NCBI GenBank assembly: GCA_030698775.1
Contig: JAUYMJ010000081.1
Location: 1 to 34,021 of the forward strand
Direction: 5' to 3'
Source of the DNA: a bacterium
GTDB lineage: Bacteria > Patescibacteriota > Microgenomatia > Levybacterales > UBA12049
Length of the DNA stretch: 34,021 bases
The first letter of the stretch is position 1. Each line of letters starts with the position of its first letter. Below are positions 6,281-30,204 of the stretch, piece by piece. The notes under the pieces were generated by a model. That model searched no databases and was not told the DNA's origin. It worked only from the letters and a program-made list of their open reading frames with translations. A program made the translations under genes and the position numbers.

Positions 6281-8044
6281 CTATTTCACTGTCACGCTTT
6301 TCGCGAGATTACGTGGTTTGTCCGGATCAAACCCCTTTCGGACGGCGAGGAGGTAGGAGAGAAGCTGGGCGGGGATAATCTGTGGGATGATCGACGCATC
6401 CTTTATGTCTTTTACTTCGATCCAGTGGTCAAACACTTCAGCACGGATCGGTGAAATTCCGATAATCGTTCCTCCTCTTGCTTTAATCTCCATCGCGTTT
6501 GATATGATCGCCTCATACGTCTCATCAGATGGAGCAAAAACAATACACGGCGTTCCCTTTTCGATGAGGGCAATTGTTCCGTGCTTGAGTTCGCCTCCTG
6601 CTAACCCCTCTGTATGGATATAACTTACTTCTTTTATCTTGAGGGCTGCCTCAAGAGCCGTCGCAAAAGACAAACCACGACCGACCGTAAAAATATGCTG
6701 CTTCTTACTGAGTGTATCGGAAAGTTGCTCAAGTGCACGCACCGGTTGATCTTTCAGTAATCTCTCCACCTCGTCTGCAGCCGAAAGAAGCAGTTTTTTT
6801 GCTTCACTTGTTCTCTTTATCATTGCGAAGCTTAGCATCAGGAGAATTGAAAGTTTTGCAATGTAGGCTTTTGTCGAAGCGACAGCTTTCTCAGGTCCTG
6901 CTCCCAAAAGAAGCTTTCTATCCGCCATGCGATAGATTGTCGAACCAAGCGTATTGACGAGCGCAAATATTGTGCTTCCCTTCCCTTTAGCTCTCGTCAA
7001 CGGTTCAACGATATCAATTGTTTCACCGGATTGAGAGAGCGCTATTACCAAACTACGCTTGGTTAAAAAATCCTCGAGGTAATTAAACTCGGACGCCATT
7101 GCAGTATTGAGATGCTCTTTAGCAATTTTGGAAAAAAGATAGACTCCCGCAAGTGACGCGTGGTACGCCGTGCCTGCACCTATCAGGAACGTACCTTTTG
7201 CCGTCTTGATGACGTCGGCAAGATCGTCGATTTGGTCGGCATACGTGTTTGCAATAGTTCTTATTACTTTTGGCTGGTCGAATATTTCTTTGATCATAAA
7301 GTGAGGGAAATTTCCGAGGCTTGCCTCCTCAACCTTCCAGTCGATTGTCTCAAACCTGACCGGTAGCTTATTGCCGGTAGTAACGTCATACAGTGCAACT
7401 GAAGTATCGAGCACAACGAGCTCATTGTCTTTAAGAAAATGGATTTCTTTTGTATGACGAACAATTCCCGATGCGTCAGATGCTAAATAGAACGCATTGC
7501 TTCCACGTCCGACAACAAGCGGTGATCCGTTTTTTGCTGCGACAATTTGCTCCGTATCACTATTCATGACAACAATTGCATTGAGACCGCTGAACTGCAC
7601 AAATGCATTGCGAACAGCCTGAAGGAAATCCATACCCTCCTGCATATTTTCCTCAATCATATGAACCGCGACTTCAGTATCTGTTTCCGATCTGAACCTG
7701 TGACGTTTACTTCGCAAGCGATGTCTGAGGGTTTCGTAATTTTCGATGATGCCGTTATGCAAAAGCGCAAGTTTCTCGGTACAGTCGAGGTGTGGATGCG
7801 CGTTTTTCACCGTGACTCCGCCGTGCGTCGCCCACCGTGTATGTCCTATCCCAACTGTGCTTTTCGGAAGAGACACTGTTGCGCCACCGATTTTCCCCAC
7901 GTTTTTCTCAAGGGCAATTTTCCGGCCGTATTTCACGGCAATACCCCAGGAGTCGTACCCACGGTATTCGAGTGTTTTTAACCCGTCAAGGATAACTGAG
8001 GGTGCAGAAGCAGACGCGCCGATATAGCTGAAAATTCCGCACAT
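6281..8044 (-). CDS. glmS: GlmS, glutamine--fructose-6-phosphate aminotransferase; start revised from 8071
   Basis: MCGIFSYIG N-terminal nucleophile Cys, GIGHTRWATHGGVT, SQSGETIDIVEPL, C-terminal PRNLAKSVTVK. The GATase Cys must follow Met, so ATG 8044 is the correct start. Confidence 0.97.
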   Translation of the reverse strand: MCGIFSYIGASASAPSVILDGLKTLEYRGYDSWGIAVKYGRKIALEKNVGKIGGATVSLPKSTVGIGHTRWATHGGVTVKNAHPHLDCTEKLALLHNGIIENYETLRHRLRSKRHRFRSETDTEVAVHMIEENMQEGMDFLQAVRNAFVQFSGLNAIVVMNSDTEQIVAAKNGSPLVVGRGSNAFYLASDASGIVRHTKEIHFLKDNELVVLDTSVALYDVTTGNKLPVRFETIDWKVEEASLGNFPHFMIKEIFDQPKVIRTIANTYADQIDDLADVIKTAKGTFLIGAGTAYHASLAGVYLFSKIAKEHLNTAMASEFNYLEDFLTKRSLVIALSQSGETIDIVEPLTRAKGKGSTIFALVNTLGSTIYRMADRKLLLGAGPEKAVASTKAYIAKLSILLMLSFAMIKRTSEAKKLLLSAADEVERLLKDQPVRALEQLSDTLSKKQHIFTVGRGLSFATALEAALKIKEVSYIHTEGLAGGELKHGTIALIEKGTPCIVFAPSDETYEAIISNAMEIKARGGTIIGISPIRAEVFDHWIEVKDIKDASIIPQIIPAQLLSYLLAVRKGFDPDKPRNLAKSVTVK

Positions 8045-17807: not shown

Positions 17808-18694
17808 ACTGTACCTCTTTCAAAAACGCGCATTTTTGCGCTTCTTGCCCTAGGATTTTCTGCCACTTCCTCAAGCGTAGGAGTGACAGGCTTTTTTGTG
17901 AGAATGCTTCCAAATCCCTGGTCAGCAAACGACGAGAAACGGTGTTTGACGATCCTATCCTCAAGAGAATGAAAAGAAATAACCACGATCCTCCCTCCGA
18001 CACCTATTAACTGTAACGATGCACTCAGAGCTTCTTCGAGAGCGTGCAACTCATCGTTGACTGCAATCCGAAGCGCCTGGAATACACGTGTAGCAGGATG
18101 CATTCCACCGCTCTTCCCCATCCGTCTCTCAATGATAAAAGCCAAATCTCTTGTCGTTTCTATTGGCTGCATAGACCGTGCCTCAACTATACAATCGGCA
18201 ATCTTATTCGAAAATGGCTCCTCGCCATATTTTTCAAAAAGCTTTGCAAGTTCTTTTTTTGACAAACCGTTGATGAGGTCTTTTGCTGTTACCGCGAGCG
18301 AACTGTCCATCCGCATATCAAGTACCCCCTCCCTCTGAAAACTGAAACCCCTGGACGGTGTGTCAAACTGGTGACTTGAGACACCAAGGTCGAATAGTAT
18401 CCCAGAGACCTTTGTAAAACCTTCCCGTTTTGCAATCTGGCCGATCTCGCGAAAATTACCTTTGCAAAGCGTAATTTCCCTCCGAACGTCCTCTGCTACA
18501 TGTGTGATTTTTTCTTCAACAAACCTGATTGCTTCCTCATCAACATCAATTGCAAGTACTACCCCTCCGCTTTTGGCAATTGCGAGCGTATGCCCACCTC
18601 CTCCAAGCGTCACGTCAATATATCGTTTACCTTTTTTTACCTGAAGCAAGGAGGATGCCTCCTGAAGCATTACGCTTCTGTGGAAATCACTCAT
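17804..18694 (-). CDS. rsmH: RsmH (MraW), 16S rRNA m4C1402 methyltransferase
   Basis: HRSVMLQEASSLL, YIDVTLGGGGHTLAI, DLGVSSHQFDTPSRGFSFQREGVLDMRMD; SD ggaggt upstream. Confidence 0.96.
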   Translation of the reverse strand: MSDFHRSVMLQEASSLLQVKKGKRYIDVTLGGGGHTLAIAKSGGVVLAIDVDEEAIRFVEEKITHVAEDVRREITLCKGNFREIGQIAKREGFTKVSGILFDLGVSSHQFDTPSRGFSFQREGVLDMRMDSSLAVTAKDLINGLSKKELAKLFEKYGEEPFSNKIADCIVEARSMQPIETTRDLAFIIERRMGKSGGMHPATRVFQALRIAVNDELHALEEALSASLQLIGVGGRIVVISFHSLEDRIVKHRFSSFADQGFGSILTKKPVTPTLEEVAENPRARSAKMRVFERGTV

Positions 18695-19127
18695 CGCTTT
18701 TACCTCCCTCGCTTAACCTTTCGGCGATCGATGGAACTTTTTCACTAAGCCTCAGCTGTTCCTTCTCCCAGAGTGTCTTGTCCCACACTTCAACCAACCG
18801 CTTCATTCCAGCAAATATCAATGCATCGCTAAGACCCGCATATTCTCTCAAATAACCCGGAAGAAGAAAGCGCCCTTTGTCATCAAGTTCAACAAACGCA
18901 GCGTTGCCAAGTAAAAACCGCTGCATCTCTCGTGCATCTTTATTGAGGAATGAAAGCTCCTCTGTTCCTTCGAGAAGTGACTCCCAGTTTGCAACGGACA
19001 CGATAATAAGGTTTCTATCCAATCCTTTCGTAATGATCAACTTCTCTCCGAAAACCCCGCGGAAGCGTTTTGGAAATGAACTCCTGGACTTTTCATCCAG
19101 CTTTCCTTCGTACTGACCAAGAATCAT
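18687..19127 (-). CDS. mraZ: MraZ transcriptional regulator
   Basis: MILGQYEGKLDEKSRSSFPKRFR and VELDDKGRFLLPGYLREYAGL, the duplicated AbrB-like half-motifs. Confidence 0.95.
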   Translation of the reverse strand: MILGQYEGKLDEKSRSSFPKRFRGVFGEKLIITKGLDRNLIIVSVANWESLLEGTEELSFLNKDAREMQRFLLGNAAFVELDDKGRFLLPGYLREYAGLSDALIFAGMKRLVEVWDKTLWEKEQLRLSEKVPSIAERLSEGGKSDE

Positions 19128-19148
19128 ATTTTAAAGAGCAGATTATTT

Positions 19149-19163
19149 TCCCACTTTTTCCCA
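19149..19163 (-). promoter_or_regulatory. Candidate MraZ boxes: TGGGA-N5-TGGGA direct repeat
   Basis: Minus strand gagTGGGAaaaagTGGGAaaata, repeats exactly 10 bp apart, 21 bp upstream of the mraZ ATG. Confidence 0.7.
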
Positions 19164-19180
19164 CTCGGGATACTATCCAT

Positions 19181-19198
19181 TGTGAAATATTTTTCACA
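19181..19198. repeat. Perfect inverted repeat TGTGAAA-TATT-TTTCACA upstream of mraZ
   Basis: Arms 19181-19187 and 19192-19198, 4-nt spacer. Confidence 0.75.
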
Positions 19199-19302
19199 GC
19201 GAGTCAAGGGGGTAAAAAGACAGAATAGTGGGTTGATATAGGCTAAAACACAAACTGTAGTAAAGAGGGGCGTTTTGTGAAAATAGTAACGCGTAGATCG
19301 TA

Positions 19303-23495: not shown

Positions 23496-23507
23496 AAGTT
23501 ACGCACC

Positions 23508-23536
23508 ATTATACAAAACATCAGGCTTGATATCAA
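23508..23536 (-). promoter_or_regulatory. Promoter TTGATA-17-TATAAT, 12 nt from ATG 23495
   Basis: Direct reading of the minus strand. Confidence 0.65.
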
Positions 23537-23560
23537 ACTATGAGTTTATTGGCAGCCGGA

Positions 23561-24127
23561 TTACAAATCCAGGCGCATAAATATCGCGCGGCTTTTCAGG
23601 CGGCGCTCGAGGATACTCTCGATGAATGAATGAGTATCAACAGACAGGGATGCTGCTTGCGGCGTATGCCAATAGCCAAGAAGTGTAAGAAGTGTTACCT
23701 CAAATTCGTGGATGACAAAGAGTGCTTCCTGACTCAGGTCAGAATTACATCGCGACAAACGGTGCAAGGTATTTTTCAAAAGAAAATAAACCTGATGATG
23801 CTCCTGGTTTTCAGGACACAACCCATCAACAAGCTCGCAAATGTGGTATGCAAAACCGATTTTCTGCAGATCCTCTTTAAGGTCAGAGCAAGTATCGGTA
23901 GCTGTTGCTTCGGTCAATATTGGGCTTCGTGATGCCTGGTACAGTGTCAGAATAACCGTATTTAGAAGCTCGACGTGGGCTGATCGGCGGCTAGGAACGC
24001 GCCTGATGCCTTTTGCCTTTACAGAAAGCTTGCCGTGGTCTCTTGTGAAAACAGTAAGAAGACGATCTGCCTCTCCGACATTCCGCCTATTAATAATTAT
24101 TCCTTCTGTTTTGTAGGTTCGGATCAT
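23561..24127 (-). CDS. recO: RecO-like DNA repair protein (short)
   Basis: MIRTYKTEGIIINRRNVGEADRLLTVFTRDHGKLSVKAKGIRRVPSRRSAHVELLN is a typical RecO OB-fold N-terminus. Confidence 0.85.
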   Translation of the reverse strand: MIRTYKTEGIIINRRNVGEADRLLTVFTRDHGKLSVKAKGIRRVPSRRSAHVELLNTVILTLYQASRSPILTEATATDTCSDLKEDLQKIGFAYHICELVDGLCPENQEHHQVYFLLKNTLHRLSRCNSDLSQEALFVIHEFEVTLLTLLGYWHTPQAASLSVDTHSFIESILERRLKSRAIFMRLDL

Positions 24128-24138
24128 AAGGCAGGCAT

Positions 24139-24202
24139 TAGATACTAGTAGCTAGATATTAGAAAAAACTCTAGTTCACTAATACCTAATAACTAGTGCC
24201 TA
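24139..24202. repeat. Inverted array of 7-nt-phased TAG units
   Basis: TAG at 24139, 24146, 24153, 24160; CTA at 24179, 24186, 24193, 24200; the two 24-nt arms are reverse-complementary at 18/24 positions. Confidence 0.75.
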
Positions 24203-26143
24203 CATCTTTAGCTTCAATTCTTTATCGGTAAGGAGCGGAAATTTCTCAATCGTACGATTATTGACTTTAATTGTGTATTCGTTATTGTCGGTGCCCGGCT
24301 GTTTCTGGATCAACAACGGCAACATGCCTTTTTCAACTTTAAACGGAAGAAGGTAGGTTAGTGTATATGTCGTTTTCCCCAAGGGACGAACTGTGATGAA
24401 TCCATCAAACACGGTCTTACCCAAATCCTCGTGGGTTGTCACTTTCACTTCAGAACCTTTTGCGCTGATCAGCTTGCTCCCTTTGGGAACATACACCCTC
24501 ACCCAATCCCGAAGTTCCGCGTTCAAGCAGAGGCCCCCGCGCTCGAGATTACAATCAGAAGGTGCGTGTGTATTTTTATAATCAATGGTTACTGTCTTTT
24601 CGATCTGCCCGTCCCCTTTTACGTTGTAGACAACACCAACAGCCTGATTGGTGAAAAGATTCGACTTAGCTCCTCCGAAATTGGCGTCATTAATGTGCAA
24701 ATAGTCACCATCAAAAGGAAGAATTCTTCCGGCGGCATTGAGCGCCTCGATTCCGGACTGTGCATTTTTGTCATAGAGGTCAAAAAGGACATGCTTCTGC
24801 TGCACCTCGGTAATCAAATCTTGAAAGAGCGGGCCCCAGTAGAGTTTGGGTGATGATTTCAGCGCTTTCTCCATTAACGCATAAAGAAGCGTTCCAAGAA
24901 GGTCTTTCCTCCCTGTTTTGACGTAATTCACCGGTCGTGAGATATTGTCTTCAAGCGTATAAATCACCTGCGGGCAATCACAGCGCGGATCGTTTTTCGT
25001 GGTAAACGAGATGCCTCCGGCAGTGATTTGGTCATCAAGTATCTTCAAAACCGATACGAGCACATGTGTATCAAGCGCTATGATACCGTCAACCTCTACT
25101 TTTTGTCCTGCTTTGTCGTACATTGCCCTAAATGTTTTCATGGATTCAATAAAATCAGGTGAAAGATTGGAGTCCCGAAGGTTAAGCGTGTTGACTTTTG
25201 GTAAGTATTTAAGGATGGGTTCCGGAGCCTTCTGCTTATTCGGAATAGAATCATCCAAAGTATAAATATCGTCAGATCTGTCAACATGAATTACCCCTTT
25301 ATCAATCCTAAAAACAGCATAGGCAGTGATGAACCCACCGGTCGGACGGAGCTCTTTGTCGTTCTGGAAAAGGATGAGATACTTCTTCTCCTCAGCTTCA
25401 CCAAGAAGCGAAGGCAATACTTTTATGAGTGGCTGTGCCTCATCGACGAACGTCACCCCTTGGTCGGTCAGATCACGCAGTTGTTTAAGTTGAGAATTCG
25501 CCTTTTTACCGAAAAGAAGTGACGGGTAGTGATTTGGGTCTATTTTGTCAACCTCATCCCGCATGGCAACAAGGGATTTAGATAATTCATTAATTTTGGG
25601 TGTCACCTTACCCATTGTCAAAACGGCAGTCTTTATTCGCTCTTCAGCTGTCCCGCCGACAAAACTTCCCTGTCCTTTCAATCCAAGAACATCTGCGTAT
25701 GGGGCTAGGGAATTGAGGAGGATTTCACCTGTCTCTATACCATGTGTCCCTGCCTTTACCAAATGGTCAGCGTCACTGTAATACCACCCTGCGATCGGAA
25801 TAAACTGGACAAAGGAGAAGCTATTGAGGTCCTTTTGTGTTTTTGCTATGAGCACCTTTGTATTTTTGAGCTCTTTTTGCGCTTGTTCTATATTCTGATT
25901 TTTCAGATACGCAGCAACAGTCTTTGCCGACTGGTAGGTCGCCCTGGCGGAAGAGTAGGTTTTTTGCGCAGGAAGGATGATGGTAAACACGGAGAGAATT
26001 GCAATAATGACAAGGCCCGCAATAATGACTGCAGAATTCTTGCCAAAGTGAAGCTTGAAATTCATTCGAGCTGCAGCTACCCTGCGCTCCTTGCTTTTTT
26101 TAGGATCTTTCTGCTCAAGATCAATCTTTTGAAAACCGTCCAT
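24200..26143 (-). CDS. DUF4012-family membrane-anchored protein
   Basis: N-terminal TM, AEEKKYLILFQNDKELRPTGGFITAYAVFRIDKG (DUF4012 hallmark). Confidence 0.85.
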   Translation of the reverse strand: MDGFQKIDLEQKDPKKSKERRVAAARMNFKLHFGKNSAVIIAGLVIIAILSVFTIILPAQKTYSSARATYQSAKTVAAYLKNQNIEQAQKELKNTKVLIAKTQKDLNSFSFVQFIPIAGWYYSDADHLVKAGTHGIETGEILLNSLAPYADVLGLKGQGSFVGGTAEERIKTAVLTMGKVTPKINELSKSLVAMRDEVDKIDPNHYPSLLFGKKANSQLKQLRDLTDQGVTFVDEAQPLIKVLPSLLGEAEEKKYLILFQNDKELRPTGGFITAYAVFRIDKGVIHVDRSDDIYTLDDSIPNKQKAPEPILKYLPKVNTLNLRDSNLSPDFIESMKTFRAMYDKAGQKVEVDGIIALDTHVLVSVLKILDDQITAGGISFTTKNDPRCDCPQVIYTLEDNISRPVNYVKTGRKDLLGTLLYALMEKALKSSPKLYWGPLFQDLITEVQQKHVLFDLYDKNAQSGIEALNAAGRILPFDGDYLHINDANFGGAKSNLFTNQAVGVVYNVKGDGQIEKTVTIDYKNTHAPSDCNLERGGLCLNAELRDWVRVYVPKGSKLISAKGSEVKVTTHEDLGKTVFDGFITVRPLGKTTYTLTYLLPFKVEKGMLPLLIQKQPGTDNNEYTIKVNNRTIEKFPLLTDKELKLKM

Positions 26144-26188
26144 AAAAGGTATAGTCCAATCTTACTCAACAGGAGTATTTCTTGTCAA

Positions 26189-26854
26189 TCACAATGCCCC
26201 TTTTCCCGAAATCATTGCCCAGGGAGTTTTGAGGACAATACCCAGGTCATAGAGGATCGATCGATGCCTCACATATTCAGCATCCATTTGGATTCTTTTG
26301 TCAAAATTTATTTCTGACCGACCCGATACCTGCCAGTATCCGGTGAGCCCCGGTTTTACCGAGAGTACGATTTTCACAGCATCTTTCGTTTCCGGATATT
26401 TTTTTTGTTGATCCCGAAGCTCATCCGGATAATATGCCCGCGGACCAACCAAGCTCATGTCACCGCGAAGAATATTCGCGAGTTGAGGAACCTCGTCTAT
26501 TGAGTGTTTCCGTAAAAACCTACCGACTGTGGTTATCCTAGGGTCATCCCTCAACTTATAACTCCCTTTTTTGTACCGTTCGTAGAGCGCGGCAAGTTCC
26601 GGGTCTTCCCGGAGCAGTTCATGTGCGTTTTGGATCATCGAACGCAACTTATACATTTTAAATGGCTTGCCGCTTTTCCCGATCCGTTCAGGTGTATCGG
26701 CAAACACTGGACCTCTGCTGTCAAGTTTGATTGCTAATGCTGAGAGAAGAAGGATAGGTGAGAAAAAGAGAAGGAGAAAAGAAGAAAAAAGAATATCGAG
26801 GCTACGCTTCACGATCTCGTACGTTGCGCTCTTTGTAACTTCTTTGTAGGGCAT
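26189..26854 (-). CDS. WcaJ-type undecaprenyl-phosphate sugar phosphotransferase
   Basis: VKRSLDILFSSFLLLFFSPI, FKMYKLRSM, FLRKHSIDEVPQLANILRGDMSLVGPRAY, KPGLTGYWQVSGRSE. Confidence 0.92.
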   Translation of the reverse strand: MPYKEVTKSATYEIVKRSLDILFSSFLLLFFSPILLLSALAIKLDSRGPVFADTPERIGKSGKPFKMYKLRSMIQNAHELLREDPELAALYERYKKGSYKLRDDPRITTVGRFLRKHSIDEVPQLANILRGDMSLVGPRAYYPDELRDQQKKYPETKDAVKIVLSVKPGLTGYWQVSGRSEINFDKRIQMDAEYVRHRSILYDLGIVLKTPWAMISGKGAL

Positions 26855-29056: not shown

Positions 29057-30169
29057 TCATCCCGAAAAACAACTCTCATACACAGCCAAAGTCTCTCTCG
29101 CCATTTTACTCCAGGAAAACGATGCAGCATGCCTGATCCCTGTCTTTCTGAGATCGGTAAGGAATTTTGCATCGTTTTTTTCAAGGACAGATTGCATTGC
29201 CGTTGCAATACTTTCAACATCCTGCGGATCAAAATAGATTGCTGCATTATTACATATTTCACGAAGCGATGGAATATCCGATGCGAGAACCACACAGTCA
29301 TTTGCCATCGCTTCAAGAGGCGTCAGCCCAAACCCTTCCATGAGTGAAGGCATAACAAGTGCAATTGCATTATGATAAAGGGCAGCTAACTCATCGTCGC
29401 CTCTTGCCTCAAAAAAAATTACCTTGTCTTTCTCAGCTATTTCAGCTTTTAACCGTTGATAGAAAAAATCGTTTTTACCTGCCAACACGAGTGAAATATC
29501 CTTATCAGCTTTACTAATGATCCGAAAGGCTTCAAGAAGGTTATTCAGGTTCTTGTGGGGATAAGCATTACCAACATAGAGAAAATATTTTCCTTGTGCA
29601 GGTATACGAGTATTTTGGGAGTTGAAATCTTTTATTGCCTCATCAACTCCTTCATATGTCACAGTCACTTTTTGGGTAGGAACTTTCAGATGGTCTACAA
29701 TCTCTTTTTTTGTGGAATTCGAAACTGCAATAACTTTTTTTGATCTCTTCGCAGCTTGCAGGATGACGTATTTATACCCCTGTAATTTAAGCCAGTACAA
29801 AGGGTATGGTAGAGTTGAAGACTTACCCGTTGGGAAATGATGGATGATCAAATCATGGATAGTTACGACAAATGGCCGGGGATACAAAATAGGGACAGAA
29901 AAGTAAGGAAAATGGACCAGATCAAGATTTTCTTTTAAGAGTACTTCCGGAAAGCGCAATTGCTCCTCTAGGGTATGCCACCGGATATCAGTGCTAACTA
30001 TTTGCCATTTTCCATTTGCCATTTGCGATACTTGCTCCTCGTCTTTTGGCAAAACAAACAACGTGTACTCATTGTGCTTATCGATTATGGCCAACTCCCT
30101 AACCAAGTTTCTCGTATATCTTCCCACTCCTGTCTCATTCCACAAGCGGCAATCAATCCCGATTCGCAT
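29057..30169 (-). CDS. GT4-family glycosyltransferase; start revised from 30184
   Basis: MRIGIDCRLWNETGVGRYTRNLV, YVGNAYPHKNLNNLLEAF, PSLMEGFGLTPLEAMANDCVVLASD. ATG 30169 preferred: the upstream ATG overlaps the TATACT -10. Confidence 0.9.
   Translation of the reverse strand: MRIGIDCRLWNETGVGRYTRNLVRELAIIDKHNEYTLFVLPKDEEQVSQMANGKWQIVSTDIRWHTLEEQLRFPEVLLKENLDLVHFPYFSVPILYPRPFVVTIHDLIIHHFPTGKSSTLPYPLYWLKLQGYKYVILQAAKRSKKVIAVSNSTKKEIVDHLKVPTQKVTVTYEGVDEAIKDFNSQNTRIPAQGKYFLYVGNAYPHKNLNNLLEAFRIISKADKDISLVLAGKNDFFYQRLKAEIAEKDKVIFFEARGDDELAALYHNAIALVMPSLMEGFGLTPLEAMANDCVVLASDIPSLREICNNAAIYFDPQDVESIATAMQSVLEKNDAKFLTDLRKTGIRHAASFSWSKMARETLAVYESCFSG
30001..30028. repeat. Degenerate 7-nt tandem repeat inside GT4 CDS
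   Basis: TTTGCCA TTTTCCA TTTGCCA TTTGCGA on the plus strand; encodes SQMANGKWQ on the minus strand. Confidence 0.7.
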
Positions 30170-30175
30170 AGAGAA

Positions 30176-30204
30176 AGTATACATGCGGATCCCGAAGAAG
30201 TCTA
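30176..30204 (-). promoter_or_regulatory. Promoter TAGACT-17-TATACT, 6 nt from ATG 30169
   Basis: Direct reading, located in a short intergenic gap. Confidence 0.5.

Follow-up and report, generated by a model that had tools for sequence, protein, structure and literature searches.

A TAG-phased heptamer palindrome at a DUF4012-recO junction in a Microgenomates genome, probably one copy of a dispersed REP/MITE-like repeat

Here we report that in a 34,021-nt stretch of DNA (the window) the spacer separating a DUF4012 gene from recO, 72 nt long, is filled almost entirely by two head-to-head arrays of TAG-core heptamers. We consider this feature to be probably one copy of a dispersed, non-autonomous, REP/MITE-like palindromic repeat that would have spread in trans and whose phased cores may be read by a protein. 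The window is contig 58 of a 1.28 Mb genome assembly (105 contigs, 89% complete) whose closest named relatives are Candidatus Levybacteria (Microgenomates). The arrays of TAG and CTA heptamers, the 18/24 identities between the arms, the 16-nt loop and the use of the last CTA as the DUF4012 stop codon, all described in an earlier sequence-only reading, were confirmed in the sequence, and the locus is laid out as follows:

24139 to 24162, plus strand: left array of TAGATAC, TAGTAGC, TAGATAT and TAG, with one TAG core per 7 nt (TAGATACTAGTAGCTAGATATTAG; sequence, exact pattern match)
24163 to 24178, no strand: loop AAAAAACTCTAGTTCA between the arms, 16 nt (inverted-repeat search)
24179 to 24202, minus strand: right array of CTAATAC, CTAATAA, CTAGTGC and CTA, with minus-strand TAG phasing (CTAATACCTAATAACTAGTGCCTA; sequence, exact pattern match)
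24131 to 24202, minus strand: entire imperfect palindrome in the fold of the transcribed strand, with its GGCA...TGCC foot (RNA fold)
24200 to 26143, minus strand: upstream gene, DUF4012 protein, 647 aa (PF13196, E 1e-22), with its stop codon at 24200-24202
23561 to 24127, minus strand: downstream gene, recO, 188 aa (PF11967 and PF02565), starting at 24127

Two exact four-unit arrays in this arrangement are not expected by chance. The two arms are the sole zero-mismatch matches to TAGN4TAGN4TAGN4TAG in the window, and an exact array occurred in none of 400 first-order simulated windows; with up to two mismatches allowed there are seven matches in the window against 1.09 +/- 1.09 after shuffling, a count that none of 100 shuffles reached. 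Part of the inverted repeat follows from the array itself, since the arms share a core and CTAG is self-complementary: the TAG core supplies 12 of the 24 arm positions, half of the 75% arm complementarity comes from the shared CTAG, and of the 12 positions outside the core just 6 match. The 7-nt phase is not kept strictly through the whole element, since there is an 8-nt step between CTAGTTCA and CTAA immediately inside the right array. CTAG is scarce across the genome, with 1129 occurrences where base composition predicts ∼4812, and arrays rich in it are the more conspicuous for that.

The earlier reading had suggested a mobile or satellite-like intergenic repeat and had proposed a search for further copies, and such copies were found, with 50 matches to the four-unit TAG pattern genome-wide compared to 9 for the reversed control. 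Gene calling with a simple dicodon model over nearly the whole genome gave 1224 genes and 88.9% coding sequence. Period-7 arrays number 173 in total, and among intergenic arrays 58 have period 7 and 33 period 14, with 0-8 for other periods; 50 kb of E. coli yielded no period-7 array. The arrays come in several sequence "colours", including YTAGNNN (TAGCGTT, TAGTATT, TAGGTAC), NCAAANN, CAAATNN, GAATTNN and GTAACNN. Just over half of the intergenic arrays (51%) lie within head-to-head imperfect palindromes with a hairpin score of at least 14, compared to 7% under a null in which the array was kept and its flanks were swapped for other intergenic sequence. These palindromes are ∼50-140 nt long with arms made of rows of degenerate heptamers and are found for the most part at gene junctions, and 47 hairpins are listed with a best arm period of 7. 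Spacer hairpins with period-7 arms lie at 31 codirectional, 7 divergent and 2 convergent junctions, against a background of 289, 111 and 51. The two arms of an element share a colour, yet they are not exactly complementary. An exact fold-back origin of the arms was rejected because the two arms of an element resemble each other no more closely than they do the best-matching arms found in other elements.

Within a colour, copies at unrelated loci are homologous, the best of them from end to end, and this homology extends ∼90-138 nt between distant loci and includes the non-periodic centres. The NCAAANN family has ∼17 copies of ∼93 nt each at unrelated loci, and one AATTTTC pair shows 82% identity all the way from the stop codon to the start codon. 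The TAG family includes about ten relatives of the reported element, mostly between codirectional genes:

L027, 6513-6638, 6994-7122 and 17045-17080: TAG-family relatives
L085, 2509-2578: TAG-family relative
L072, 10999-11103: TAG-family relative
L124, 16124-16207 and 16866-16911: TAG-family relatives
L051, 5690-5741: TAG-family relative
L128, 8043-8084: TAG-family relative
L095, 13044-13099: TAG-family relative

Within this family the L027 pair at 6531 and 7000 is 84% identical over 98 nt, with 41 identical bases and zero similarity outside. The suggestion of a mobile or satellite-like repeat is thus supported by genome-wide copies, many of them intergenic and paired head to head, that form discrete homologous units.

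What is conserved between homologous copies is the phased core. Short cores (TAG, CAAA, AAT) are kept at 7-nt spacing while the bases in between vary, and the conservation of alignment columns rises and falls every 7 nt (autocorrelation 0.52-0.68, p<2e-4). The periodicity tests draw chiefly on the NCAAANN and TTAG families rather than on the TAG family, and one-register misalignment of units could inflate the periodicity. With the core phase at each site assigned from neighbouring units alone, core-phase sites mismatch at 14.3% compared to 24.4% elsewhere in gapless pairwise alignments of 23 non-independent pairs. The resulting core to non-core ratio of 0.59 at lag 7 is the lowest over lags 3-12, the other lags giving 0.83-1.68. 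Variability is clustered in some phases when all arrays are considered (1.04 compared to 0.754 +/- 0.031), and in hairpin arms alone this clustering is below significance (p 0.12).

The TAG array is absent from the DUF4012-recO junction in all 16 relatives with a readable junction; in most of them the stop and start overlap or the spacer is short. Other palindromes occupy this junction in the sister genome L151, where DUF4012 is 84% identical, and in L162 and L163. The empty junctions are in sequences too divergent for a target duplication to be read, and no insertion with a matching empty site and target duplication could be shown in a near-identical strain. In a genome of the same genus (G001), strong hairpins were found at the orthologues of all 12 codirectional junctions that carry one here, with 16 junctions occupied only in G001 and none only in this genome (Fisher p 3e-7; p 0.003 when the spacer is 50 nt or longer in both genomes). 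The palindromes at these orthologous junctions are mostly unrelated, with TAGCGTC, TAG and CAAA arms here versus TCCGAAT, CATTGTT and CCTAATT in G001; at junction 8 of L057 one and the same GTCATTGCGA palindrome is found in both. We read the shared occupancy as repeated occupation of a few tolerant junctions, and in-place turnover may be an alternative. The junction palindromes of G001 (L172-L191) are built of other units, namely TCCGAAT cores ∼10 nt apart and the 8-mers CATTGTTN and CCTAATTA, so the arm period varies between species. Palindromes of the GTCATTGCGA..GCAATGAC and CCTCAGAATGACA types share the same junctions at L057 (spacer 8), L137, L151 and other loci, and in some cases the two species carry them at orthologous junctions.

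Similar elements occur across the phylum. Of 287 Patescibacteria genomes, 112 have matches to the strict pattern of four YTAG units; these often greatly outnumber those of the reversed control, which is equally high in some genomes. Full-length TTAG palindromes of ∼115-125 nt recur in genomes from several different families, with E down to 1e-28.

Heptamer arrays might instead arise in place at unconstrained junctions, through replication slippage and fold-back synthesis and without any mobile element, their shared colours reflecting the same process and composition everywhere. Such an origin would account for the over-representation of period 7 inside called genes as well, for the degeneracy of the arrays and for the different order of units in same-colour copies, and it has a parallel in Cyanothece, where heptamer arrays vary by 7-nt indels (PMC4679880). 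We nevertheless judge it unlikely, because it does not explain homology over the full length of elements at distant loci, discrete boundaries such as those of the L027 pair or the presence of one TTAG palindrome in different families of the phylum, and because neutral decay should not spare in-phase cores. An all-frame stop was put forward in the earlier reading; a TAG every 7 nt would then terminate every frame on both strands and separate neighbouring genes or render insertions harmless. Seven is indeed 1 modulo 3, CTAG gives TAG on both strands, and several TAG-family arrays overlap the upstream stop codon. However, stop density in arrays exceeds that of shuffled sequence by only ∼15% for the sense strand and ∼4% for the opposite one, and TAG makes up 8 of 32 stops in or beside arrays, equal to the genome rate. 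The stop codon at this junction is native, since the DUF4012 gene of L151 ends at the same TAG with no array there. As a general role the all-frame stop is largely refuted, and we rate it very improbable as the explanation for this element.

Selection for an intergenic mRNA stem-loop, acting in stability, processing, attenuation or translational decoupling of the two genes, draws on the better folding of the transcribed strand at the element (-26.4 kcal/mol, z -3.9) than of the opposite strand (-18.8 kcal/mol, z -2.4). The same preference for the sense strand holds over the 74 spacer hairpins of this genome (p 0.007; 116 G-U against 78 A-C, p 0.008), and orthologous junctions keep hairpins despite differing sequence. 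Against it, G001 has no strand effect (p 0.82), elements also lie between divergent genes, and neither an Rfam match (23500-26200, E<=1) nor an intrinsic terminator was called at the site. Covariation between the arms, the absence of which the earlier reading had listed as a refuting sign, was not found among 11 copies of the sister NCAAANN family rather than the TAG family itself (0.103 compared to 0.150 shuffled); RNAalifold predicts no pairs in NCAAANN and only 8 in the TTAG family. An RNA hairpin function is therefore not supported, and we think it quite improbable: of the weak hairpin seen in the earlier reading the geometry stands, while a structural RNA role does not, given arms without covariation in the family where this was testable. 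Paired arm positions in NCAAANN pair at 68.4% compared to 71.8% in shuffles, 499 of 500 of which were at least as high; this deficit fits avoidance of perfect palindromes and, with 11 sequences, is suggestive only. An intrinsic terminator was rejected in its own right, with none called at the site and elements also present between divergent genes. Mobilisation as REP sequences by a RAYT (Y1 tyrosine transposase) would suit palindromic, intergenic and dispersed elements, and RAYT-like genes are present in 28 of 40 relatives, G001 included. It is nonetheless extremely improbable here, as PF01797 was not found in this 89% complete assembly, G008, G018, G019 and G033 lack PF01797 yet have many TAG arrays, array abundance is uncorrelated with PF01797, and the RAYT-like gene of G001 (L174, 3939-4623) is flanked by GGGGACGGTCC repeats and not by heptamer arrays. 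The GGGGACGGTCC repeats around that gene represent a different REP-type family.

On our preferred reading, a dispersed element read by a protein, copies would have been spread in trans, through a process akin to transposition or template copying, and gene junctions would be the sites that tolerate insertion. The phased cores in inverted orientation may serve as the recognition signal for the responsible or a resident protein, which would probably bind as an oligomer with one core contacted every 7 nt; no transposase or binding protein for the elements was identified. We offer more tentatively, as a possibility, that Patescibacteria carry phylum-wide interspersed elements whose signature is 7-nt-phased cores of 3-4 nt in inverted arms, read by an undescribed oligomeric DNA-binding or mobilising protein, with a core sequence that would change from one lineage to the next and an architecture, and even a set of occupied junctions, that would be retained.

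The nearest published kinds of repeat each share some of these properties. REP and BIME palindromes moved by RAYTs (PMC3733652) are likewise short, dispersed, palindromic and mostly extragenic, with several lineage-specific families. However, REPs measure 20-40 bp and carry an unpaired GTAG or CGTC tag (PMC3733652), whereas the elements here are 50-140 nt, have arms of phased heptamers in which TAG cores repeat throughout instead of a single unpaired end tag, and are not found flanking a RAYT/Y1 transposase. MITEs, including the Rickettsia palindromic elements (PMC10969869), are also non-autonomous, inverted, ∼60-150 bp and dispersed at gene edges, and our palindromes share with MITEs dispersed homologous copies with defined ends; unlike MITEs, their arms are tandem degenerate heptamers and not ordinary terminal inverted repeats. 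The TAACTGA repeats of Beggiatoaceae, Cyanobacteria and Bacteroidetes (PMC4679880), with which we group the wider bacterial heptamer satellites (PMC6749651), resemble the present arrays in being intergenic tandem 7-nt units with many copies per genome. TAACTGA repeats are, however, mostly one exact unit in direct orientation (PMC4679880), while here units are degenerate around a fixed core, arms are inverted, there are several colours and the phylum is another. Compared with structured RNAs, the elements show neither compensatory arm changes (in the NCAAANN family) nor a known RNA family. None of these kinds brings together phased arms of degenerate heptamers, inverted pairing and a turnover of colours across a phylum.

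Rickettsia palindromic elements frequently insert in frame inside genes. Period-7 arrays exist in called genes here, and the sole one followed, an ATTTGCC array at 29994-30034 inside a glycosyltransferase gene (29057-30184, minus strand), is read through as ..QMANGKWQIV... It was rejected as an in-frame insertion, because homologues are about the same length and have similar residues there.

Patescibacteria genomes are small, and yet many junctions in this lineage are padded with seemingly undescribed repeats; we found no prior description of them in this phylum in the open literature, and subscription journals may hold one. If a protein does read the heptad cores, this very large uncultivated group would have a mobility or nucleoid system of a new sort. 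Even without a protein reader the elements bear on annotation, on breaks in assemblies and on the inference of operon spacing.

MraZ boxes are short GTGGG repeats read by the oligomeric MraZ protein, and they offer a precedent for this kind of recognition, in which short cores at a fixed distance from one another are read by an oligomer. They differ from the elements described here in being direct repeats at one promoter with 10-bp spacing, neither dispersed nor palindromic. The window itself contains a likely example: two AGTGGGAAAA direct repeats with 10-nt spacing lie at 19128-19215, just upstream of mraZ (18687-19127, PF02381), and are likely the MraZ boxes of the dcw cluster.
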